A DNA stretch of 64,000 bases, taken from positions 5,103,031 through 5,167,030 of the forward strand of contig CM034142.1 in the NCBI GenBank assembly GCA_019914995.1, read 5' to 3'. The DNA is from Acanthochlamys bracteata. Taxonomy: Eukaryota; Streptophyta; Magnoliopsida; Pandanales; Velloziaceae. A program made the translations under genes and the position numbers. Within the stretch, counting starts at the first letter, position 1. Every line of letters begins with the position of its first letter. Below are positions 15,327-58,090 of the stretch, in pieces. Below the pieces are notes generated by a model. That model was not told where the DNA came from. It saw nothing but the letters and a program-made list of their open reading frames with translations, and did no database searches.

Positions 15327-16247
15327 AATTTCATTCTCTAGTCTCTAGTTATAACTCATGTATGGTCATGAAGAAAGCTTTAGAGTAGTTTTGTTGGCTA
15401 TTTGTGAGTTGTAAATCAGTACTCCATATGTTATGATTATGAGAATATATATGTTTGCAAACTAAGCATTTTATAGATCTATATTCTATTATGTACAGTA
15501 TTCAATACCTGACATTTAATAACTAGGTATTAGTATGGAACTATAGTTTATTATTTATAATGAATTATCCAAATTTTAAGATTGTCCATACTTTTTCTCT
15601 TTTTTGTTTTGACAGAAGAAGGTGGCAATCTTGGGACAATAACTTACTTGTAAAATTGTAAATCGTATGCTTTTTCTTATATAAAAAACCATGCAGTTTA
15701 AATTAAAGGGGTGCATGGTCAACATGGTTTTTTGATTAAGGACAAAGAACTTGAAAGATTATTCCCCCAACAGCTTTGGATTAGGAAACCGAGTGACGAA
15801 TAATCTGTAAGTTCAAGTGGGAAGGTAGCAGTTGTTTTACCCTATGGAACTTATTAGCCAATCAAACAGTTCTGGGCCAAGTGATAGTTCTTGAAAGCTT
15901 GATTATCATGCTTATCAAAGGCGCATGGCGTTGACTTGGTTACCTATAGTCGGCAAGTCCTGGTGAAAATTCGCCTAATTATAAAAACCAGGCTGGATAG
16001 TTGTAGATTTGATCTTTTTAACAAGTTCTATCCATTCCATTTTGCTGGTTGGTCAAGTTTTGGTAAGGTTGTCTGAGCTGGGTCAATCAAGATCAGGTGT
16101 TTACGCTTTACAATACAAGATAGAAAGTTTTAGGAGATATCTTAATCTTGTTGGTGTTCCATCAATAGTTTATACCAGACCATTGTCTTATAATTCTGCC
16201 ATTTTTTGTCTCTTAATCTGAAATGAATGAAGGTTTACCAAGCTACT
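15327..16247. other. Intergenic stretch, no gene seen
   Basis: Non-coding DNA between two retrotransposons. The open frame at 16009-16221 resembles no known domain. Confidence 0.5.
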
Positions 16248-24415: not shown

Positions 24416-27400
24416 TTACCTGAGACTTGAGCTTCGTGGTTGTGCATCATCTATTTGCTGTTCTGGGTTGCTTATTTGAAGTGGTTGGGTATGTAAGTTC
24501 TCCATGATTGTGAAGCCTAACGGAATTAGTGTACGTTCATTAGCTTCGTCATTTTGTCCTCTCACTGGATATACCTGAAAAGTGACTTCTAAATAAGCAA
24601 ACATGAAAGGTGATTTTTCGTGCCTCTTTGTTAATTTAATCTCCTCTGAATTTCGAAACATATTTGAGCTTTTGAAAAAGGGTTTCTTTACCTTCTTGTA
24701 AAGCTCCACATTTTGTTCATGGAGCATTTTTTCCTGCAGCTGAATCATTTAGAGTCACATATGCATCATCTCAGAACTTAGTAAATTTAAAAACGGGTAC
24801 CTTCTTTTTTAGTTCCTCAATTTCGTTCGTTAGGATCTGGTCCTGCAGGAATAAGAAACTCAATCAACATTATTGTTCAGAAAACCCTAGCTTGTTTATT
24901 TTTATTTTGAAAAATAGTGTAAAAACCTTCTTAATTCTGATTGCACTGAGGCTCACTTCTAGTCGATTCTCTAGATTCTGTAATTCTCCAACGGAAAGGT
25001 TAGAGAGGCTTTGTCCTGTTAATACCCTGGAAATATGAATGTGAAAGATGATCATCTTGCAGCAACATTATATATGGATGCTAATTAATCAGTGAAAACA
25101 TTAACTAGAAAATTGTTCCTAATATATGCAACTTCTCTGCGAAAGATATGTACTCCTTTTTAACTGACTCTGTGAGCGACTGTTGATTAACTCTTGTAAA
25201 TTTTCAAGATTAATATGACATTCTTAGTAACTGTGTGTCAACTTCACATAAGTAGGGATAGCAATTTAACCACTAATGATTAGTTGAAGCGGTATTTACT
25301 AGTGCTAATACCAGAAAACAGGTAGGCTTGCTTGGGTATTAGCTTAATAGTTATGGTTGTAGATGGTGTAAAAACATTTCTTTTTGTAAGTTTGCATTGT
25401 TTTGTTATTGTTCTGAAAATTCTTATAGAAGCAAAAAACTTGGCATGGAGTCATTCTTTTCAATCAGTACGTTTTAAACTAACTACTGATAGCTATCGTG
25501 AATATTGTAGTCATACTATATATTCTTAATCTTTGTGTTGTATTGTGTTCAATAGGTTGTGGAATTGGTACCGGTAACCTTCTTGTAAGTGGTGCAGTTG
25601 TTGCCTCAGACTCACTGCTTCCTGCTGCCAAAACTGGTCAAGTAGAAAACATACCTGTTTCAGCCACTTTGCATATGCTAGCAACTATATCAAATATCAG
25701 TAGATTATTTCATATTTCTCATGAACAATCTTTGACGAACATGCACGTAAGCGTTTCCTTTTTCAATCATTTACCATGTCCTAAGTTATTACTTTGAAAA
25801 GGTATCAGCGATTCACTTGCATTGGTTTTAATCCAAATTAGTTTTACTCAACATATGTGAACATGCATCTGGAATATATTTTTTATAATTACTTAAGTCA
25901 ATGCCATTTAAAAGTTCTCTAGCATGCCTTTAGGAGAATGCGGATTAAGGGTTTTTCATTTAGTGTCATTTCCACCAAGTACTGTCTCATCGGAGGTATT
26001 TCGCTGTATTCTTTCAGTCATACTTTTGAGATGGCAGTACTCTTGTATTAGACACTAGAGAGATCATTTTCTTGTTTTCAATCATTTGGGTGGTCCTCTG
26101 GTCGTTACTTCGAAAAAATGTCAAATATTCTCTTTCATTTGGTTTCATAACGAAATTGTATCATAGTCAGTCATGCTCACCATCTGTGAAGATGCATCTG
26201 TAAATCTCTCTTAAATTTAATTACTTTAGTTTTAGCCATTTAAAAGTTGTCTGTGTAGCTTGCATCTGGACAACGTTGATTGAGAGTATTTCCTGTTGGT
26301 ATCCATTTCCACTAATTGCCTCATTAGAGGTATGTGCGTTATACCAATGCATTCAACACCAGCAGTGGCATACCAGTGGTGCTTGCTCGGACACTAGTTG
26401 GTCTCTTGATGATCTCGAGCTGATGAGAGCTTGGCGAGTTACTAAGATGAATTCTTATATTGTCAATAAAGGTATTCACACACAAGACTTAATTAAATTA
26501 TTTTGCTTTTTTACTTTATTATGTTACTACTTCCGTTGTTACAACAAACTTATATCTTTTTGGACAAAAGCTTTCTATGCGGTACTACCATCAAGATAAT
26601 CAATTTTCCTTAGATCATCTAATAGGATCAGCCAAATGCAAAGCCTTCCTGTATAATTTAAAGCTAGGGAAAAATGTATGATATTAAAGATCGGTAAAAT
26701 TTTTAAATTGAATTTCTGGATGTTCAAATTGCAACCCCATTACACTGGACTCTTACTGCCAAACTTATTATAATCAAATATGCTATTAAATACGTTAAAT
26801 AGTTAAAGCAGAAATCAATTTCATAATGCATTTCCTGTTAAAACTCTTTAATGATCAATTTAGAACCATAAATTTTGTAAACATATTCGCAACTTGTCTG
26901 TAGGATTGCCACAAAAAATGCAATCCATAGATTACTCTGTGGATATCTATTTATAGTCTAGCAATCTCAACTAATTTCTGGTTTATGACTGTATTATGAT
27001 ATTCCACATTTGTTTTAGTATTTCTATTGAACTTATTGACATTGCTGAATAAAGAGAGCTGGTTGTGAGCAACAGTGTTGGTGGCTCTAGCTGCTCAGAA
27101 TCTGCAGGTTGATACTAGCTTGGCAAACTGATTGGGTGCAACTAATGCATAAGAACCCGATACACAATTTTCTGCTAGTTCTTTGACCTCTCTGGTGAAC
27201 CCTAAGCCTTAAGGCTTTTTCTTTAAATTCAACTAATGAATTGAAATCTATGTCTTTTCCTTATAATGTACTTAGCCAAGCCAGAATTTGTAGTTCGCTG
27301 TCCTATTCTCAACAGCTCCTACAGTATTAGAAGGTTGTCCTCTGTGGTTAACCGTTACTCTACTTTAGTAATTTTAATTCCTGAAATTGTTTGATATTAT

Positions 27401-42015: not shown

Positions 42016-43586
42016 TGTTGGAATTACAAGGATAATTTTGATGATAACAAAGAATTAAGAACTATGATTTATATAAGACTAATAATCTGAAAACAAATTC
42101 TGCAGAATTAGACAAACAAAGATCATTTAATTTACAGCAGACAAGAACAGCCATCATACAACCAACTGCTGAGCTACTACATACTGGACAGAGGACAGCA
42201 TATGGGACAGAGGATGCCACAGCCACATCACAGTTAGCTGCTCGACTGCTCGAAGCGGGACAGAGGACAGCATACGGGACAGAGGATGCCACAGCCACAT
42301 TACAGTCAGCTGTTCGACTACTGAAGCATAAGAAGACTTCTCTGTTTCGAAACAGACCCTTGTGTTCAACGGCAGCAAAATTTCCCTTGCTTCAAAAATC
42401 ACCTGCACTCACAACGGACTGAAACATTTCAAATAGAAGATTTACAAGAGCTAAAATCATCCTCAATTTCATATAAAAGCAAAGCTCAATAATCAAGGGA
42501 AGAAAGCAGTCAAAATCTTTGATCAAGTCAAGCAGTCAACCTGCATTGCATTTATTATGGACATGGCATATCAACTCATCAGCTCACCGAGTCTCAGACA
42601 GAAGCTTAGCTGAATTAAGCTTTCAACCGTTGGCAGCAAATTCAAACCTCTTCAACGCATTTAATGCTATGGAGACTTTACACAAACACAGCTGAAAGAC
42701 CACTGGACAACACCACTTCCTCTATGACGTGAAGAACCGAGCGCCAACGGCAACGTTCCTTAACGGCTCCTGCACAGGAAAGAAACTCTATAAGAAGGGA
42801 GTCACAGCAACGAAGAAACAACGTGAAGAAAGAGAGAAAAATAGGGAGAGAACATAAAGAAAATAGAAGTAGAAAGAACCCAAACAAAAATAGAGATATA
42901 CAAGAACTGTACCATTCTACACAAAAATATCCTACTGCTAGTCACGAACTCGACTACTCCACACAAACAAATCTTGCTGCAAATCATACTGAAGAAATCT
43001 CTCTCAGCAACCTCTCCGATCATCTCATCTGAATCACATCATAAACACTTAACATTCATGAGATAGATCCTGCGCTCAATCTTTGTTTATTTTCTTATAA
43101 CTTCTTACTGACGGTGTAAAGGTGGTGCTGCAGGCACCGGTAAAGGAAGCTCAGGTAGAGCTTGGTGTAAGCTCTTAGACCTTGTAATAGAGCTAGCAAA
43201 TCAGCCAGGGGGACAGGTGTGTCCAGTAGGCTGTTAGGGGTTGTCTTGGCGAAGAAACCCGGTAGAGTAAATGTGCTTGGCGAAGCACTTTGCTCTAGGT
43301 GTATTTGTAGCTTATTAAAGGTCTAGTAAAGCTTTGGCTCTGGTGATAGAGCGACCATGGATGTAGGCAAAAGAGTTTTGCCGAACCACGTTAAATACCC
43401 TGAGCACTACTTTTTGTCACTTATGTCAGTAAACACTCTAACTCTCTCTGTCTGCAGGTTACAGCATTGACACAGCCGGCTGTAAGCTCGCTGCCAGTAG
43501 GATAACAAATTTGATAAAAAAAATTCTTATAGACTAACTCAATTCACCCCTCCCCTCTTGAGTTAATCTTGCAGGAATATCTAACA
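42016..43586 (+). mobile_element. Solo LTR of a SIRE/Maximus-type copia element, inside the TNP2 gene
   Basis: The 1,571-bp segment starts TGTTGGAATTACAAGGATAA and soon reads TTTTGATGATAACAAA. It ends CTCAATTCACCCCTCCCCTC and ..CTAACA. Flanks are GCACA (42011-42015) and GCACG (43587-43591), a 5-bp duplication with one change. It is the same family as 11182-13275, in opposite orientation. CCGAACCACGTTAAATACCC near 43381 is the complement of the AACGTGGTTCGG phrase in the other copy. No primer site or coding part. Confidence 0.85.
42186..42328. repeat. 72-bp tandem duplication within the solo LTR
   Basis: GGACAGAGGACAGCATAYGG and the following 50 bases occur twice in a row (from 42186 and 42258) with few differences. 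Each unit itself contains GGGACAGAGGA twice. The repeated ASSVPYAVLCP peptide on the minus strand is a by-product. Confidence 0.85.
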
Positions 43587-45779: not shown

Positions 45780-48700
45780 ATGGGGAGGGGAAAGATTGCA
45801 ATTAAAAGGATAGACAACGCAACAAGGAGACAAGTTACCTTCTCCAAAAGGAGGAAGGGTTTGTTCAAGAAGGCCAATGAGCTTGCCATCCTCTGTGATG
45901 CTGAAGTCGGTGTAATTGTCTTCTCAAGCACCGGCAGGCCCTACGAATTCACAAACACAAGGTGACATGCATGCGTTTTCATCTAGAAATCCCTCCTCGA
46001 ATTCATGCCATTCAATCATCTTACTTTCAATTCAATGAAAAAAGGGGGCAAAAGGGAAAGGATACATAACAATTAATTAGGACATTGTTTCATTATTGAT
46101 TCAAATTCTATTACTGAAAGATTCAAGATATACCAGAAAAGCTCCTTATTTTGGGAGAGAGCAACTAGAATTTGACTCCCCCAAACATGGTTTCACAACA
46201 TTTTGCTTAAACAGTAAGGTTACCAAAGAAAAGCATTTAGTGTATTGCTGATCATTTTATCTACACCTTGCAATTGCATACCTTAAAACTTCTGATTTTC
46301 TAATTTGTTTTTTAATTCTAAACTAGGTTGACATCTGAGAAATCATCATACCATGCACTTAAAAGCAGTTAAAAGTCACTTCAACTCTAGGGATAATATC
46401 AAACTTACCTTTCTATGATCTACCTAGTAAATCAGTTACATCAGATGCAGTATCTGATGTTCTGAACTCTTGATAGGAGCTTAGCTGATGTTCGAGTACC
46501 ATAATCTTGCCTTTACTCCATTTAACTATAATTTATATAGTCATGTTGATCTCCCAGACTTCGACCCTAATCTAAATTATCACCAGCCAAGGTTGATCAC
46601 CAATCTGGCTGACTGAAGAAGAGAGGCATGAAGATGTACAGAAGAAATTTGCAACAAAGATACATCATTCTTGACCATTAACAATAACATAAGAGGAAAG
46701 TGAGGGAAGGCAGGGAACAACCTATGTTTGAGAGAGCCATTAGGGAACAAATTTATGATTGTAGGTGGCCTTGAATTGAGTTGCTTTTGTTGCCAACTTC
46801 TTCACCGGGCAGACCCAACTGGCATGCCATCAAAGCCAAGTAGGCCTGCAATGTGAGTGCAGACATCAGCCGAAATGTGTAAATTTGTCATATTCAAATG
46901 AATTTTTTATGCGCATATAGTTATCTTAATGCAAAAGGTAAGAGAAGAATCTAGCAAACCATATATTCCTGCTTGCTGATGGAGTCACAATTTCTTAGGA
47001 AGAATGTAGCAAGGTCTAATCGAGATCGACTACATGGTTTTGCTTTTTTCTCTCACAAAAAGACTGAAACTACAACTGATAATCAACTAGCTGATCCTAT
47101 CAGATCAATGGTAGAAATTTGATATTAGTAGATGCATAAGAAAAATATAAAGCACACACTGATTCAATGACGAAAACAAAGAGGATAAAATCGGAGAGTC
47201 CTGTGCACAAACTAGAAGATGTCATAACTCTTTTTTTTTCTTTTTAATTCCTGATATGCTATTATCAAAGATAACTTGCTCTTCACTACTTTAATTGTCT
47301 TGCAGCAGTCTGCACACCAGACAAGTTACATCTATTTTAAAGAGTTAAAAAATCTTGATAGATAAAGAGCCCTCAAAAGTAAGCCAGAAAACATGTAAAC
47401 ATGTAAGTGGAAATCTGGTACGAAAAAACTTCTAAAAGAAATTGTCAAATAATGGCCAACCTTCAGCGGTTGCACATGCCAAAGAACATATTTCCCCTGG
47501 CTATACAGCACCAAGCAGTCACATTTGAAGTATTGTTATGACATTTAGGTACCAAAATTAATAGAGAAATGCCTATACTCAACAAAGTGAGGGTGATGCA
47601 AAGAATTGATACAAGAAGATACTAAATTATGTAAATTCCAAGTAACATTTGGAGCCAATTCAAACTATAAGATGTTATCACCCCTTGAGGCTTTACATGA
47701 GAGGATTCATTCAGAATCCAAACAAAATCATTGAGAGTAGACAAATAAGTAAAGAGATGTCAAACGAAAAGCAGATTATCTCAACAACCAAAATCATGAA
47801 AACTTCCAGAATTTCATACAGCTATTCCATTTGTGTGTGTGTGTTTGTGTGTGAACTGGTATAGTGATTATATCCTTTAGTAGAGCAAAATGCATAATGC
47901 TACATCCATTATGCAAACCATCACTCTTGCATTATGAAACCCTCCCACCATCTAAATCTTGACATTAAGTTCTATTTCAGTATAAACTCAGTGATCGACA
48001 GATACAACAAAACAAAAGAGGGGCATTCCGAAGAGCCAAATGCAAATTCAGAAGCCCAGGTATGTTTAATCCAACTGTCAGTGACTAATCAAACTTATTA
48101 AGTCTTACCAGGCCATTAACAATAGCATGACTAAAGTGGAACATAGACCAGCATCGAAAAAAGAGTGAAGGAAACAGCTACACTTGAGTCATATATTGCT
48201 TGTAGATAGAAATTAACTCATTACATGACAGACTAATTTGTAAATATGTGATGACAAGCAATAAAATTTATTTAACATTTATGAAATACGTTTCAACATA
48301 ATGCTTCTAGTAAAAAGGTTTTCAAAAGTATTAAGTTAAATAAAGGGCCTTAAATCTTACCTTGTGATCACCACTTTGCAAATTGAAGCTGAAAAAAAAG
48401 GCCTTAAATCAGTTTATCATGGTTATTGAGTGCAACTCTTTTCTGAATACTAGGCATTAGATCCAGTGATAGCAACACATCTGCTTGAGGTTCTGCACGT
48501 TATCTATAGCACAATGCAGGTGCATGTAAAATGCTTCACTTCACATGTATAAATAAAAAAATAAATAAATACTGAACTTGTGTTTGCAAGAACACCAGTG
48601 AGAATTGAATATTGCAAGGACTGATGGAGACAATCGACAAAAAAGTTCTGTGTTATGGAAGAAACCAATGACTATAGGCAAATTATTCTAGCTATTGCAT

Positions 48701-50082
48701 TGAGGTTGTGTAAGGAATAGTTTACCTACCAGTATCTGCCTACTACTGCTTTTCTAGTGTGTATTGTCTATAGCTAATCAAGCATTTTGTGACTATCACA
48801 TGCCTTCATATTCAAATTTTCAATTAGACTAAAATCTATTGGATACTTATTCTCTAGCACCATGCTAACATATTGAATCTGGTATGTTATATACACTAGT
48901 TTTGGCAGAAGGAAGCAGCAAGTCTGAGGCACCAATTGCATAACTTGCAAGAAGATCACCGGTACAAACCAATACCTGTCAGACACATAATTAGGAACAA
49001 TTTAGTGGATGCAGGCATCTTTGATAGTACACAATATGATCCATTAAGCATGCAACAAGTTAGTTACACGAAGGTGAAAGTTAGTTTGTCTTTGCACAGG
49101 AAATTAGTGTAGTTTAAACACATTAACATGTCTCCCAAGGGGTAACAAAATAATATAAGACACTTCGAAACAAGTTACAATGATAGATAAATGCCAAGCT
49201 ACATAGTAAGAGCCTAGATTGATCAAGGAATTCATCATTTCAATAACTCATGAATATGAAAAGAGCTCAAAACATTATGAGATGATACAAAATATAAGAA
49301 AAAGTACTTTGTTCTGCATGTTTATGGTGGTTCTAGTGAAGTTCGCTTCTTTTAGGAAAACAGCATTGCACATGTAGAAAGCAATCCCACACATGCATTG
49401 CGTAACTTTTTACAAGATAAAATTGCATAATCTCAACTTTCAAATTCATGGTTCCAGGAAGCTGACAGGAGAGAATCTTTCTGGTCTCTCTGTTAATGAT
49501 CTGCAGATGCTAGAGAACCAACTAGCGACGAGTTTTCGAGCAGTTAGAACGAGAAAGGTCTTCAAACTACTGCTTTTTTGTCAAACTTAATCAACCAATC
49601 TTCATATGAAGTATGAAACTCATTTTTCAAATTTTGCCTCACCTACACAGGAGCAAATTTTTGTAGATGAAATCGAGGATTTAAGAAGGAAGGTATGCTT
49701 GTGAGAATGAAGTAGACCTTACGTTGATGAATATCATTACTGAATTAGTGATTTGTCTGCAGGAAAAGATAATCCTCGAAGAAAATGTGAAACTTCACAA
49801 GAAGGTACACACATTGATAGCATTGCTGTCAAACTAAAAAGGCTGATAGACACCTCAAAACTTCTAGAGAGAAATTTCAAGAAAACACAAAGCAACCAAT
49901 TGACATTGAAATTTCTGTTCCAGGTTTATGGATCAAGAGGACTAAATGAAGAAGTTACTCACGGACCGACTCTACCATTAGGCTTGAGAATCACAGACAA
50001 TTTGAATGTGCGACTGAAGCTTGAACTGAGCTCTCCACAGCAGCATGCAGATGAGGCCAGTGAAGACCCCAAATTAGGCTAA
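45780..50082 (+). CDS. MADS gene B: AGL17/ANR1-clade MIKC MADS-box transcription factor, 221 aa
   Basis: Coding exons 45780-45961 (182 bp), 47981-48059 (79), 48900-48961 (62), 49458-49557 (100), 49651-49692 (42), 49763-49804 (42) and 49924-50082 (159), all with GT/AG borders and fitting phases, total 666 bp. Every exon has exactly the same length as in MADS gene A. The start was set at 45780 because [20 protein letters not shown] is the invariant MADS start; the frame is open further upstream. The I region has [15 protein letters not shown], the K domain [13 protein letters not shown] and [20 protein letters not shown], and coiled-coil parts [14 protein letters not shown] and EENVKLHKK follow. 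The C-terminus ends DPKLG, just where related proteins go on to LQL. Intron 1 is 2.0 kb. Expected role: nuclear transcription factor acting as a MADS dimer. Exon 3 has a weaker miR444-type site, with an inverted exon-3 copy 4.7 kb downstream. Confidence 0.94.
48920..48940 (+). promoter_or_regulatory. miR444-type target site in exon 3 of MADS gene B (degenerate)
   Basis: AAGTCTGAGGCACCAATTGC occupies the position where grass AGL17-clade genes have AAGCTTGAGGCAACAACTGC. Against canonical miR444 the differences fall at miRNA positions 17, 18 and 9, plus a G:U pair at position 6, so regulation by a canonical miR444 would be weaker than for gene A. On the minus strand this segment is the candidate miRNA arm of an antisense transcript; the sequence CTGACAG|G just upstream on that strand (exon start 48975) would serve as its splice acceptor. 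Confidence 0.5.
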
Positions 50083-52793
50083 GTACTTTAAGGAATAAAT
50101 AGACATTGATATGACATTCTTGACTTGACAGCAGCCATCAACTCCATTGAAAATAATTTGCTGCTGGGAATATCCTATCTCAATCTAGAGTACTAATCAT
50201 GTCATTTTCAGATTTCTTCAAATTAAAGATGTGGTTTAATGTTACGGTATATTAAGCTCATATCAAATCTATGGGAACCGAGAAGCAAATGACTTCATAG
50301 GAAATACACAAACTCTATCATTGAGAAATGGGAATCACTAAAATACTTTTACCATCTGGGCATTATAAACTTCAAGTATTATTGCTGCTTGTAACCAAAT
50401 TCAAATGGGTAGGTTGAAAGAAATGTTTGGTGAAAGTTTGGCATCTAGGTGAACTTTAACAATGGTGTTGTAATACCAAGGAAAAACAATTTCCATACCA
50501 TGGTATGTCAAAAGGAAATAGTTTTGAGCTTCATAAGAGTGTTTAGTAATGCATGTTTTAAGCTACCTCAATAGTTTTCAATTTATGCTTAATGCTATAT
50601 TCAAATTTTGGGTGCATTGTAGAACTGCTAAGTTGAGTTGGTAGAGCTTTGATTAATGCCATATTAAATACCTAATGAATAGAAAAGAGACATGGTTTTG
50701 TAATACTTGGGAATACTAGGGAGTCATTGGACCATAAGTAAGCATCACCAAACACTAGATTTGTTGTTATTAAACAATGGTTTTTACAATACAATTGTAA
50801 TAGCTCAAAGACCATGGTATAAGGTTCAAATACCGTACCTTCCTAATAGGCCCTTAATTCAAATGGTTACATAATTCTGAAAATAAGAGTAAAATATTAA
50901 TATTATATTCAAATACAAAGGAAAGTGGATAAATTGAGAATTTGTCTATATAGCATTTTTGTTATCTCAACTATCTACCAAGTCTACCTCGTCTTGATCT
51001 GTTTGCGTCTTGCTTAATGAGGATTGAGATCATTAAACCCAACATTCTAAAAGAACGGAATGCGGTATGAGCATGCACTTACTGATCATTAAACCCAACA
51101 TAGGTGTTATGAAGGTACCTAACCTAAGGCATCTAGAAAATGACATTAGAGATTTAATTACACAAATTTCTGTTTAAACATTACAATTTTTTATGTATTA
51201 TCATGTAAATACATGTGGACTAGAATTTTGATTATTTGAGATCAATGTGCTAAGCCCAGACAGGGAAGGTGCAATTTCTTTTAACTCTTATATGAAGCTA
51301 ATATCTATTAGGCTAATCTCTAGTCAAAGTATGAATTGAAGTGTTCGCACCACCACAATCTGCACACTCTGACGTCTATAGATGATGACTGAGCTTTAAA
51401 AAGATCTCAACCCAGATACTTGAAAACCTGGAAAACAAAAAACTATCAATATAACTTTTAGTTGTACATTGCAAGGCCTGCCTAGGCCAGCCTGAATGCA
51501 GCACAATGCAATGTAAGCCCCTAGCCCAACCTGGTATACATATGGGCCAATAACATGCAGTCTGTCTAAGACTCTAAGTCAGCATCTGGTAGTCTGCACT
51601 AAGGTGTGGTACATGCTTAGCCACTTGAATAAGAAGGTCATGCAAACACATTTTAGAACACTGGTTACCCCAGCTTGGAGCCTGAAAGGTAGACTCCGTT
51701 CATTTTAGACCAGACTAATGACAGCCGTCCAGCAGAGAATTTATCTATAGTTTACCCAATTCAAGAAGCTCTTCTATCACCACTAAACCACTGGGTAGTT
51801 TAATATTTGTTTGGGACTCACGTCGCCAGGCTCCAAGCAAAATGGAGTTTCAAAACAAGGAATTAAAGTGAATTAGAACTGTATGGAGTCTAACTCCATT
51901 TTCTTATGTTTGAAAAGTTCGCTTTAAAATTTCAGTTCTGGAAGACCATGGTTCCTGTCCTCCAACTACAATTCAAAGGGGAACTTATCTCTAGAATCAT
52001 TCTACAAGTCTCTTGACTGCAGATCGCTCTTTTAATTTTGTCATACAACTAAAAGACAGCCAGCACCTCAGATTAAGCATGAGAATAATCCTTCTAGCTA
52101 TTTACTAATACAGAGAGCATCCGCTTTCTCTCAGCTTTAGTTTCTGAATCAAAAGCTTAATTTCCTTGTTGCTGACTCCAAAATGGTATTACTCGATTGA
52201 GTACCTTCAATCTCGCCGTCGATGCATGATTCGATGACCGGGTCTTAAGAACCGAAATGGGATTGTTGCTTGGCAACCCCACTACTTTGAAGATGCTTAT
52301 TCTAATCTTGCAACAAAGCTTTTATGGAATGCCTATAAAAAAGAGGGATTTGGAAGACGAGGAATAAATTGCTTATCTATGTCTGTATCCACAAAAACTT
52401 CAATACCATGACCAAATGAGGAAAGAACAAGAAAGGTGCCTCTATTGATTCAGAACGAAGACTTTGTCGTACTTCTCTTTGGATCATCATATTCCAAGCA
52501 AAACTCTATCGATCACCTCAACCAGTTAACTTCAGTTTTAAGAAGTCCACAAACAAAATTAGAAATGAAAGGCTAAATGTGCAAGTAATTGTTTAGGGAA
52601 TGAAGAAACTCATTTGATTCATATTTTTATTCAAATACAAATATGTTGAACAGGCACAAAGAGAGGTGGGAAGTTTATAAGCACATCAGCCAACCGAAAA
52701 CTGTGGAGATTTTAAGTTAACTTTCAGATTTTAGTTATTAGTTAAGACCGACCCATCAATCTATAACAATGGAAACAACATAAGCAGTGCAAC
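50083..52793. other. Intergenic DNA downstream of MADS gene B; no gene seen
   Basis: No intact coding region. A stretch near 52240-52150 read on the minus strand has a short frame (DPVIESCIDGEIEGTQSSN) with no recognised family. A segment at about 51450-51640 rich in CCTGGCC-like words may be a remnant of the MITE family at 52794. Confidence 0.45.
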
Positions 52794-53302
52794 CACAGGT
52801 GTAAATTCGGGCCAGGCTAAACGGGACGGCTTTCTGTGGCCTGGTTTTCACACTGTGTCTAGCCTGCCTCAGTCAGTGAATAGTAACAGACTGCGGAAGG
52901 TCTTAATTTCTGCACCAGTGGGCCATCCGGCCTGGCCTGGACTGAGAATGACTTGGGTGCAGCTTGTCGCTACAGGATGCTGCAACGATCAGAAATCTGA
53001 CCATTGCCAGGTGATACAAGGGAGATTCTAACTTGTTTAAGAGATTGGGAACATGATGCTAAAGGGATGCAACATAAAACCTATAATTATAACTTGACAT
53101 AAGATTTTTTATGACTTGTTCTTATATGATGATATTCCTGCACCAAGCCAAAATGCATAAATATTACATTAAGACCTTAGATAATAATTCTTCTCGTGTT
53201 TAGCTGCTTAAATAATTCTTCTCTTAGCTGCTTTGCTAAAAAAATTGGGTCTTGTGGGGCCAATCAACTCAACACACCCGGACTGCCATATTTACACCAC
53301 TA
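52794..53302. mobile_element. hAT-type MITE, 509 bp, perfect 8-bp target duplication
   Basis: Flanked by identical AGTGCAAC at 52786-52793 and 53303-53310. The ends are CACAGGTGTAAATTCGGGCC and the inverted copy of TAGTGGTGTAAATATGGCAG. The left part is GC-rich (GGCCTGG words) and no transposase is encoded. It lies just beside the MADS exon-3-like fragment. Confidence 0.85.
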
Positions 53303-53651
53303 AGTGCAACTGTGATATATGATCAACACAAGTGCTATTTCTACATTATAGCTTTATGATTGCCAAAATAAATCAGTTCCCTACTGCATGTAAATATCGT
53401 AAAGACACAAAATTATATAAAGACTTCAAAGAAAAGACTACTTAGACAAATCACAAGCGACAAACTAACCCCGGAATCACTGTAAACCATACTTCGAATT
53501 CAATGTCTGCAGACATTCTTGTATCAGTTCACTTGTTATCTTTTGGTTTCTTAAATATCCCAAAATGAAAATCATAACTTTACAAATTTTTAACCAAAAA
53601 TGGAACAATTTCTTAGGCCTTTCTGTAATTTTAGGTTAATAGAAATCATAC

Positions 53652-53714
53652 CATCACTACTTTTTGCAAGCTATGCAGTCATTGCCTCAAGCTCGCTGCC
53701 TCCACCTAGCAAAA
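53652..53714 (-). ncRNA. MADS exon-3-like fragment; candidate miR444 star arm (or pseudo-exon)
   Basis: Read on the minus strand, 63 bp starting TTTTGCTAGGTGGAGGCAGC and containing GAGCTTGAGGCA, then TGACTGCATAGCTTGCAAAA, align along their whole length with exon 3 of MADS genes A and B (about 76-80% in the core). The intron borders are conserved too: CTCTGCAG before it and GTATGA after it. All three frames are unsuitable for the K domain (stops, one extra base), so it no longer codes MADS protein. The opposite strand reads TGCAGTCATTGCCTCAAGCT at 53674-53693, close to miR444. Two readings: the 5' (star) arm of an antisense miR444 precursor whose 3' arm is antisense to gene B exon 3, or a relic of a third MADS gene. 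Confidence 0.6.
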
Positions 53715-56700
53715 CTGCAGAGAAACTATTTAAGAATGTATGTATATATGAAGTAAGATAAGCAGGACCCAACCATAATTGTTGCATATTCCATCATGTA
53801 GTAGTATAAGAATTGGAGTAGGAGAAATAATGATCACTAGTATAATGACATTTAAGAAAGAACTACAGCAATTTGACAAAATCATTGTGAGCAACTTTCA
53901 ACTTCTGCAACTACCATATGCCATCAAATCTCAGCTTATAATGATTCCAATAAACAAAGTAATTTTCAAGGTTTTAATATGACAGCATCGACAGGCACGT
54001 TGCCAAATTAAAGCATGACTACAGGCAGCCAAGAGGTACTCAATGCATTCACTAATGGCATAATCAAAAGTCAGGCCACATGACTACCATGTAGGACGAT
54101 AGATCCAAATCCCCCTTTGGTTCAGATTGGACTACGTTTAACTCGGATGGCCAGAATTTTCAACATGTAAGGATTTAGAAAATCCCAACTACTCACCATA
54201 AAGATCTTGCCAAAACAATAGTCAAGATGGATTTTTCTATTCAGGTCTACTCTGATAGTTTCAGTTTGTTATAAGTTCATTTGCTTACATATTCTACATT
54301 ATTTCGGTAGTTGTATTTTGAGTTTAACTCTGTTCTTGGAAGGTTCACGTCTATTTGAAGATATATAAACAGCCATTAGCTCATTATAGCCTTATTATTA
54401 TCACAAATGATGTTTCGGACTTTACAATGAACTACAACGCAGATTGGCATGTACCACCTTGAAAGAGGTTTATCATCCTACCTTAATCATGAGCAAAACT
54501 TTTGATATGCATGTTGTGTGATCTGGTATCAAATGCCAGGTTCCATCTCCTACCGTGAACAAGAGTAGCATTTTGACAAAACCTTAGTCATACATTGTGA
54601 AGGCTCACGGCAGCAATTGAGATAACAATGGAAATGACGACCAGAAATACTTCTAATTTTTTAGTGTTCCATATTACCATAAGATCCGTTGCTTTGATGA
54701 TTATTTCACTGAAAGGGCTTTTTGGTAGTTGTGGTCATTGAGTAATACAACACCAAAATCAACTCTTTGAGACTTACAATGAAGTTAAATATTGGTTGGA
54801 AATCCATCCTTTAATATAATGTGAAGAGCTTAAGATGCAAATTTTGATCATTTCAGAAATTTTTGCTGAAAATACCAAGATCTGTTTTGGCTAAGTTCAA
54901 AAGCTAAAAAAGAAAGGGAAAAAAAAGTTAGCAAGGTCAATACCAATGAAAATCTTGCCCACTATGCCACCTACTGATATTGTGAATAAGTGCGACAAGA
55001 AACTCCACACTAACAAATAGAGTAGAACAGTACTTTAATTCAACAATAAGACTTTTATAAACACAACATGCATCACGCCACAATAGTGAGATTGCAAATT
55101 CTCAAAGCGCATTATCTCAATCATCAAATTCGTAAATAATAGAGGTAAGGGAAGAAATTGAGAAGGATGATAAAGACAGTTGTCATCGCACCTAGGACAA
55201 CCATAGTCGAGAAGAAATTAAGTCTACAACAAAGCTACATCACAACAACAAATTTCGGACAAGGGTCATGGAGTTTAAGAACATCAAAGCTTTTTCAGTT
55301 TCTTGCTCATGATATTCTTGCAATACACCAAAAGGGTATAGAGCACAAGCCTCTTGTTGTCCAATAAAGATCATGCTACATTCAAAGCACTTAAACAATT
55401 GGCATGGAAAAGTCTAATTGTAACCATCAAACTCAAGAACAAGTTTTTTGTGCGGATCAAAACGACAAGATAAAAAGATAGACTGCAGAACTACCCGAAT
55501 GAAACATGGATTCAAGATTTAGTTCATATTTCAATTGGATAGTGCACTCTAACTTTGAACAATTATAACTTTCAATTTGGAAGGAGTTTTGAAGGCACAC
55601 GAGTACTCATTGATAAAATTATTTCATGTACAAAGATCGGAATTCGAATTTGGGCATGTTTCCTAACTAGAAGGACTAGTTTTCTATTCAAATTTAGTTT
55701 GGTAGTTTATTTTAGTGACTTGGTTAGGTGTTGAATTATCATCCCATATTTGCTTTGGTAGGCTTGAAGTGATTTGAAACAGGTAGTGTCAATCGTTCAT
55801 CAAGGTCCTATTACTATCTTCAGTAAAAACAAATTTAATTCCTTTACTAGAATTACGTAGTCATCATTATGGATTAGACTTGTTTCACTCCTTAAAAAAG
55901 GTCACAAGCAATAGGAACTTGACAATCTCACTTTGCATCAACTGTTGTTGCACTATAGCATCTAAAACAATTAGAGATTTGGAAAATTAGAGTGCTAAAA
56001 TCCAACTTTTAAATGATTTTGTCGGTCATGCTTTTACATCCTTTAACGATAGGAGCAACTTCTCAATATCAATTGACATCACAGACTTGGCCTTTTAGAA
56101 ACACGGAAGTCTCGTTTTTCTTCTCATATCATGACCAAGGTACTCTCCGTTCCCAGTGAGAAGTGTGTCAGATTTGTAAAGAAACTGAGAATATCTTTGG
56201 ACTTGTAGAACACTTTTCGGGTATGGGTACATATCAAAGATTGAATTCTTAATCAATATCCCAAACACATATTACAATTTACAATAGGTAGCACTCCTAT
56301 TTTTAAAGTATCAATCCAGTTTCAAATTAGAAGGTAAAGAACAGGGTTGAATATCAAAGACAAGGATCCAAGTGTTGGCCACAAATACAAACAAAATTTT
56401 AGAATTTAGTAGCCTATATAATACAGGACATGTATTAGCAGCACATTCAAAGCTAATAATAGGAGAGTTTCACTAAGGACTGATGATATACCAATGAAGA
56501 GAACACGTCTAGGTTTAAGCTCCTCAGTATTCCTTTTCTCAAAACAATTATCTAGCAAACTTTCTGGTTAGTCAACTAACAAGTTTGCAATTTTTCATAT
56601 TAGTTTTACGGAACTGAGTGTTTAACACTAAAGCTTCACCATCTTCAGAAGCTATGCATGCAGAAGAAGGGATGTTTTGATCAATATGGGGATATACAAT

Positions 56701-57962
56701 TACAGGCAGAATTCAAAATGAAGTAATAGAAAAGAAGACGAACGGTGCCGATTGAGAAAAAATTGAGGGAAGCTCACTTGAGGTAGTGAGAAGACTTGTA
56801 ATGCGCTAGCTAGAAAGAAGAAGCTCAATGTGTTAAGAGGGTTAAAAGGAGGCATACAAAGACCAATAACAGACCCCAAAAAAAAAGCATACTGGCATGG
56901 AAAATCCATGCAGCCAAACCCACCTAGTGAAATTAGACTTGATTGTTGTTGTTCTTCTATGGTTGTGGTTGTTGTTGTTGTTAATACGATAACTGCAAGC
57001 TTTGACCAATCAGTCAGGTGCTTATCATATGCCATCTCACCACAGTGCATCTAGACATTTTATTACACTTCCCTAGAACTCTTCCAAACCAACTAGCGTA
57101 CACAAATTCCAATATTGGAAAGAAGCAGCAGAGACTTTGTTTCAGTTAAGGTGCTTATATTTAGTAACAATAACTATAAACAGGTATTCTAAAGTACTAC
57201 TGCCTTATAAAGTCATTCTGAGGTCTCATTTTACTTGAGGTGTTTATGTAGTCACAATAAATACAGAACGGTAAAACTTAATCAGTATCTTCTGCCTTTT
57301 TATGTTTAACAGATCAGCTTATATAAATTCCAATATATACATGTTCTAAGGAATTTGAAGTTAGGATATGATTCACGACATGCAACAGCATGAAGGAAGC
57401 AATGTAGCTGATTAGACATTGCCTAACAAGTGTCATTTTATTGCCAAACCTAGGAATTTATAAACTTATGTAACAAGTAAGAAGAAACGAACTTATGTAA
57501 CAAGTAAGAAGAAACAAAGTATCCATCGCTTTCAACAAACGAATTGTGCGTAAAAAAGGATCGTTTTACAGGGAAGGATAAAAACAAACTAATGTTTACA
57601 TTCTAAACCGGTAAAACATTAACGAAAATATTTTCTAAAAGAAAAACTAAATCAACTGAATTTCCAAAAAAGAGTAAACGATATTTCCATTAGTTGATCA
57701 AATTTTAAAACATCTGGTGAACTCATTCTCGTGAAGGACAAAACAACATGATCATCAAAACTCGTTTTAAATAATTTTCTAGAGTGTAACTCTAAATATT
57801 GGGTATAATGCTAGAGCGTACAACAGCAGCATTCATAAGAAGTTAAAAAAACTGAAAGGAACCTAAACACCTAATTCCATACGCTAATACTGTAAATCAA
57901 AATTGCATTCGGATCAAATCGAATTAAGAGAAAATGGGCTACGACAAATTCGAAATTCTCAC
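53715..57962. other. Probable intron or intergenic DNA, no coding exon recognised
   Basis: No conserved protein was found on either strand. If a minus-strand transcript starts near 58 kb, this would be its first intron. The frame at 56700-57050 (minus) contains a GTTGTT-type triplet run and no known domain. Confidence 0.4.
57463..57516. repeat. 27-bp tandem duplication
   Basis: AACTTATGTAACAAGTAAGA plus AGAAACR occurs twice in succession, with one difference in the last base. Confidence 0.85.
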
Positions 57963-58058
57963 CTGAAACGGTCGACAACTTCCACCGCCATCCGCAGATC
58001 TCAACCTCTCTCGCTCGATCGCTCTCGTATTGATTAGAAGAAAAAGGAGAGATTGATA
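57963..58058 (-). other. Probable first exon of an unidentified minus-strand transcript
   Basis: A TATA box TATAAATACT lies at 58090-58081 (minus). A CT/GA-rich leader follows, then an ATG at 57991 in a short frame MAVEVVDRF, and TTTCAG|GTGAG, a perfect donor at 57963/57962. The 9-codon start has no recognised family, and no continuing coding exon was found within 8 kb. It could be the first exon of a protein gene whose later exons I failed to see, or of a non-coding transcript; if it runs leftward it crosses the MADS exon-3 copy and then MADS gene B in antisense. Confidence 0.45.
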
Positions 58059-58080
58059 TGTCGCTACTGCGGCAAAGCGA

Positions 58081-58090
58081 AGTATTTATA
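58081..58090 (-). promoter_or_regulatory. TATA box of the minus-strand transcript
   Basis: TATAAATACT on the minus strand, about 30 bp ahead of the inferred transcript start and about 90 bp ahead of the ATG at 57991. Confidence 0.45.

Follow-up and report, generated by a model that had tools for sequence, protein, structure and literature searches.

A probable split natural-antisense MIR444 gene opposite an AGL17-like MADS-box gene of Acanthochlamys bracteata (Velloziaceae)

The window analysed here, 64,000 nucleotides (nt) of contig CM034142.1 (positions 5,103,031 to 5,167,030) of Acanthochlamys bracteata, a member of the Velloziaceae (Pandanales) and not a grass, holds two AGL17-like MADS-box genes, gene A on the minus strand and gene B on the plus strand; of two paralogues, gene C is found at C17:5176.8 kb, some 10 kb beyond the end of the window, and gene D on contig C9. 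Our data indicate that gene B very probably carries a split, three-exon antisense MIR444 gene on its opposite strand. An earlier note on this DNA had proposed such a natural-antisense (nat) MIR444 locus over gene B, and the proposal is supported by the two arms, their splice borders, the predicted hairpin, the repetition of the layout at paralogue C, the fit to the Rfam consensus and the rarity of the star arm in the genome.

In the proposed gene model, a minus-strand transcript would start, probably, near 58.06 kb and be spliced at 57963^53714 and 53651^48975, and the spliced RNA alone would bring the star arm beside the antisense of gene B exon 3. If diced, this hairpin would release from its 3' arm a 21-nt miR444, which would pair perfectly, by origin, with the gene B mRNA and with one or two mismatches (some of them G:U) with those of genes A and D, and would cut all three mRNAs in exon 3. 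Transcription, splicing, dicing and cleavage are steps that we infer from the sequence.

The 5' (star) arm repeats MADS exon 3 in inverted orientation and is 63 nt long, versus 62 nt for the MADS exon. It is flanked by ...CTCTGCAG on one side and GTATGA on the other (minus strand, 53714-53652), and the borders read from the sequence are an acceptor GCAG/TTTTG, in register with the acceptor of MADS exon 3, and a donor GATG/GTATGA. The copy with its splice borders had been claimed at this place, 4.7 kb past gene B; it is there, and the distances given are correct; from the target site to the star arm they amount to 4.7 kb. Since the star exon still bears the splice site of its source exon, a simple origin by inverted copying of one exon, with splicing ready-made, is suggested. 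The star regions of B (400 nt) and C (500 nt) can be aligned with each other only across 71 nt (75% identity), which suggests that the arm may be under constraint. That the copy was derived from MADS exon 3 together with the splice site of that exon, and carries in-frame stops, would suit a remnant of a duplicated MADS gene that was never part of a microRNA (miRNA) gene. We regard this as most improbable, because a tblastn search with two proteins at E 5 found no further MADS exon on the minus strand between 50 and 58 kb, a lone inverted exon recurs beside gene C and probably beside gene A, and pairing with the opposite exon is kept in both B and C.

The predicted 3' arm is antisense to exon 3 of gene B, whose joined protein has 221 amino acids, with a MADS box scoring above the Pfam cut-off and a best match, among the best 120 hits listed, in Phoenix (63% over 100%) and not in a grass. 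The antisense acceptor TTATGTGTCTGACAG/G that the earlier note had read at 48975 is present, and AG/GT occurs at the same position in all four aligned paralogues. By-eye counts against the osa-miR444f sequence given in PMC2292181 place the predicted mature miR444-B (neighbouring register 48915-48935) at 17/21 identical nt and miR444-C at 19/21, so that B differs at 4/21 and C at 2/21. The locus has an arm opposite exon 3 of an AGL17-like MADS gene, the predicted miRNA on the 3' arm, a 5' arm formed by the inverted exon-3 copy that lies downstream of this gene, and a predicted mature sequence near known miR444. The proposed arm order, star 5' and miR444 3', agrees with the borders, the hairpin and the same layout at paralogue C.

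Folding of the predicted spliced RNA, a check that had been named in advance, gave -71.8 kcal/mol for the B arms (z -9.36, 0/200 shuffles as good) and -71.1 kcal/mol for the C arms (z -9.10, 0/200), both with predicted borders. The spliced A arms reached -35.3 kcal/mol (z -0.34, 68/200 shuffles as good); this hairpin is lost. In the osa-miR444f register, 3/21 nt are unpaired in the predicted B hairpin and 1/21 in that of C, and three is inside the usual limits for plant miRNAs. The star exons measure 63 nt (B) and 61 nt (C) and both terminate in GATG/GTAT, so the borders are kept between the paralogues, the splicing itself being predicted from these letters. When the predicted spliced RNAs of B and C are aligned with the Rfam MIR444 consensus, columns 6-121 contain no internal gap, and this equal length supports both predicted junctions. 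Among 47 predicted pairs, 6 are changed on both sides in some row of this three-row alignment; with three rows, covariation is no proof. The pairing extends over about 45 bp and is nearly continuous. This, together with the overlap with a coding exon, would also be in line with arms that feed hairpin or sense-antisense small interfering RNAs (siRNAs) instead of one precise miRNA, and sequence alone cannot discriminate the two. We hold it to be very unlikely, however, as stem length and layout equal those of grass MIR444, which is described as a source of defined 21-nt species (PMC2292181).

As a measure of kept pairing, we counted at how many of the positions that distinguish a star arm from its own exon 3 a G:U pair is still formed. 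In the core (nt 13-41) these were 6/6 for C, 5/8 for B and 6/15 for A (P = 0.00024, 0.027 and 0.15 at an assumed chance of 0.25; P = 0.016, 0.36 and 0.85 if all changes were transitions), and from nt 13 to the end 10/17, 6/17 and 10/28 (P = 0.0031, 0.23 and 0.14 at 0.25). The three tests are not independent, two positions being common to all three arms. The signal of kept pairing is clear for C and weak for B.

The star arm is rare in the 195.5 Mb of genome searched, some stretches of which read N and were unseen by the pattern searches. A search pattern based on the star arms of B and C matched perfectly at two places, B and C, and at 3 mismatches gained three more matches, exon 3 of A, C and D. 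A local target pattern hit exactly four sites, one in the MADS exon 3 of each of the four genes. With up to 3 mismatches allowed, a grass-type 26-nt target pattern hit four places, namely the star copy of B, exon 3 of C, exon 3 of D and an unrelated place on contig C12. Reversed control patterns gave 0 matches for all three. The below-cut-off Rfam matches on unspliced DNA included places on contigs C4 and C7; the one on C4, with 6 mismatches to the target, was set aside.

The candidate first exon at 58 kb is the weakest part of the observation. The TATA box and donor that the earlier note had described there are at their places, with a strong donor CAG/GTGAGA after 57963 on the minus strand; the paralogues lend the exon no support. 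Its GC content of 0.467 is the top of 39 windows of 150 nt each (the others up to 0.43), the exon is single copy, and no second copy was found elsewhere in the genome. A promoter and first exon here are plausible on these features. A bacterial promoter scan was set aside as uninformative for plant DNA. Joined by eye to 53714-53652 on the minus strand, the candidate exon would encode a short peptide, MAVEVVDRFSFARWRQRA; a barley MIR444c peptide, PEP444c, is named in the reference list of PMC11706861.

A number of observations weigh against our interpretation of the locus and of its age. On unspliced DNA the Rfam MIR444 model gives B 32.7, C 32.4 and D 36.7 bits versus a cut-off of 110, and sub-threshold matches also occur in 7 of 14 unrelated control genomes. 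An intron-split precursor is expected to fail this model on unspliced DNA; the 31 matches listed in the Rfam scan belong mostly to other families, many in a simple-repeat stretch. Pairs broken in one row number 11/47 and the covariation term is small (-1.65). The wobble count of B is not significant over the whole exon or, under transitions, in the core, its star mismatches two gene-B-specific bases, and no counterpart of the 58 kb exon was found near A or C. Finally, the grass 5' arm is no nearer to the B star (32/43) than to B exon 3 (33/43), and the tree of arms did not resolve (best support 76, stars not one clade), so it is layout and length that speak for a single ancient origin.

The weak wobble signal and the two mismatched bases, together with arm A, which demonstrates that such arms decay, could point to B as a fading MIR444, its arms being relics, with miR444 still made by locus C only or by neither. 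We consider this unlikely in view of the strong fold of B with few unpaired nt and kept borders; A, unlike B, folds no better than chance.

Gene C is a broken MADS gene. Of its MADS box, the second half is matched at E 2.6e-6 and the first half only weakly (E 1.2), about 490 bp off; exon 4 is 4 nt shorter than that of D, and exon 7 has an early stop. Its hairpin, with an own inverted arm 3.1 kb downstream of the target site, therefore stands in a gene hardly able to make its protein. Collinearity between genes C and D, interrupted by gaps, extends from exon 1 to C17:5174314 / C9:3593275, ending about 0.5 kb before the C arm. The two genes are identical at 56/62 nt in exon 3 (40/41 in the first 41 nt, by-eye count). 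For exons 4 to 7 the counts are 84/96, 37/42, 38/42 and 88/120, the last with 123 gap columns, and six pieces of intron show 67-80% identity. The predicted miR444-C has 0 mismatches to D and differs from A by G:U only (one G:U in one register). The predicted miR444-B is perfect to gene B and has two mismatches to C and D in one register and one in the other, with the same mismatches plus G:U pairs to A. From these features, locus C may represent a MIR444 that has survived the breakdown of its host gene, a possible orphan, trans-acting nat-miRNA.

The region at 15606-15673 is probably a decayed star arm of gene A. Its local score with the B arm is 20.9, versus 13.7 for the next unexplained place on the same strand and 18.1 on the other; the latter, 43395-43456 on the minus strand, was set aside as two short shared blocks in repeat-like DNA. 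With the C arm it scores 17.6, versus 17.3 for another place. In an nhmmer profile search built from the B and C arms it ranks first after the two arms and four exons (E 0.072, 11.1 bits, versus 8.7 bits for the best among 10 shuffled controls). For gene D, whose protein is closest, among the matches listed, to Elaeis (70%) and Phoenix (67%) and not to grasses, nothing above background was found as a star arm in the 35 kb downstream, 8.8 kb of which (C9:3595645-3604462) reads N. A repeated element lies at C17:5167841-5168735; the surroundings of gene D on contig C9 match it several times, in either orientation. The coordinates of the features are collected below.

Coordinates of the predicted MIR444-B locus, gene B and related features (window positions unless a contig is given)
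Feature	Position	Strand	Remarks
Gene B, AGL17-like MADS-box gene	45780..50082	+	borders read from sequence
Gene B coding exons	45780-45961, 47981-48059, 48900-48961, 49458-49557, 49651-49692, 49763-49804, 49924-50082	+	read from sequence
Gene B exon 3, with miR444 target site	48900..48961	+	62 nt; target site 48915-48940
Predicted mature miR444-B	48920..48940	-	UGCAAUUGGUGCCUCAGACUU; register of osa-miR444f
Predicted antisense exon 3 of MIR444-B, 3' arm	48900..48975	-	opens at 48975; acceptor AG at 48977-48976
Predicted antisense exon 2 of MIR444-B, 5' (star) arm	53652..53714	-	inverted MADS exon 3 copy
Candidate antisense exon 1	57963..58055	-	donor after 57963; TATA-like TATAAATA at 58090-58083; transcription start guessed
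Gene A (AGL17-like MADS) exon 3, with miR444 target site	25572..25633	-	
Probable decayed star arm of gene A	15606..15673	+	inverted, ~10 kb past gene A exon 3
Gene C, broken AGL17-like MADS gene with near-perfect MIR444 hairpin	C17:5173727-5190577		

Elsewhere in the assembly, contig C40 (1-2000) has long open frames, presumably mitochondrial rps3 and rpl16, and organelle DNA seems scattered over small contigs. The 67 matK matches in the genome, many with stops, indicate that the organelle pieces are fragmentary. One matK fragment is 93% identical to Acanthochlamys bracteata over 92% of its length, and among the best 120 of 2987 hits the next stand at 80% and at 78% (Velloziaceae; Carludovica); this places the plant in Velloziaceae, most likely in A. 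bracteata, and the broken state of the organelle pieces may account for a value below 100%.

The kind of system proposed here is known. Rice, maize, sorghum and barley are reported to have MIR444 genes whose arms are separated by an intron (PMC11706861). In barley, MIR444c carries the miRNA in exon 3 and overlaps by about 60 nt with HvMADS27 on the other strand (PMC9511987); a second bar drawn in its exon 2 is taken to be the star, whose mark was lost in the text. Locus B resembles it as a MIR gene opposite an AGL17-like MADS gene with arms in exons 2 and 3 and an overlap of about 60 nt, and differs in that MIR444c is a grass gene with a structure established by RACE (rapid amplification of cDNA ends), whereas that of locus B is predicted from its sequence. 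Rice nat-miR444 is likewise antisense to its MADS targets, with an intron between the arms and the miRNA on the 3' arm (PMC11706861, PMC3017846), and spliced B and C fit the corresponding Rfam consensus (RF00920) gap-free; the present case differs in belonging to the Pandanales and in having one copy in a broken MADS gene. An intron-split miRNA against LPR in Solanaceae also has its arms in different exons, but in dicots and with unrelated sequence and target (PMC11706861). The earlier note had pointed to a MIR444 still tied to a full-length target; such a tie was already known for MIR444 and by itself is not new. The new elements are the member, its lineage and, at C, the separation of the hairpin from its host gene; the literature searches did not pair miR444 with Pandanales or Velloziaceae, and priority is not claimed.

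The nat-miRNAs have been described as apparently restricted to grasses, with an age below 50 million years (PMC3017846). The miRNA families listed for banana roots include miR444 (PMC6757108), so that miR444-like reads from outside the grasses are already in print. No literature joining miR444 with Cyperaceae was found, miR444 was absent among the matches listed in a search on monocot orders, and the portions of the Spirodela literature at hand held nothing on miR444 in Spirodela.

The split from the commelinids is older than the Pandanales stem, and the layout was probably inherited from before that parting. The Pandanales stem is dated at 109.7 million years, and on the stem of Acanthochlamys a genome duplication is placed at about 24 million years (PMC11891173), from which we infer that C and D arose. 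On balance we favour the view that the split antisense MIR444 is older than the divergence of Pandanales from the commelinids, at more than about 110 million years, and that its copies here have met four different fates. The layout would have been duplicated along with its MADS gene: B would have kept both MADS gene and hairpin as a self-silencing pair; C would have kept the hairpin, which would act only in trans on A and D from inside a MADS gene that broke; A would have kept its MADS gene as a target and lost its decayed star arm; and D would have remained a target for which no arm was found.

A complete and duplicated Pandanales example would at least double the age given for nat-miRNAs, and would show a miRNA that was born antisense to its own target and later freed from it. 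The MADS genes under miR444 in rice and barley have been linked to root nitrogen responses (PMC9511987), and it is tempting to think that this root-nitrogen wiring of MADS genes and miR444 might predate the cereals.

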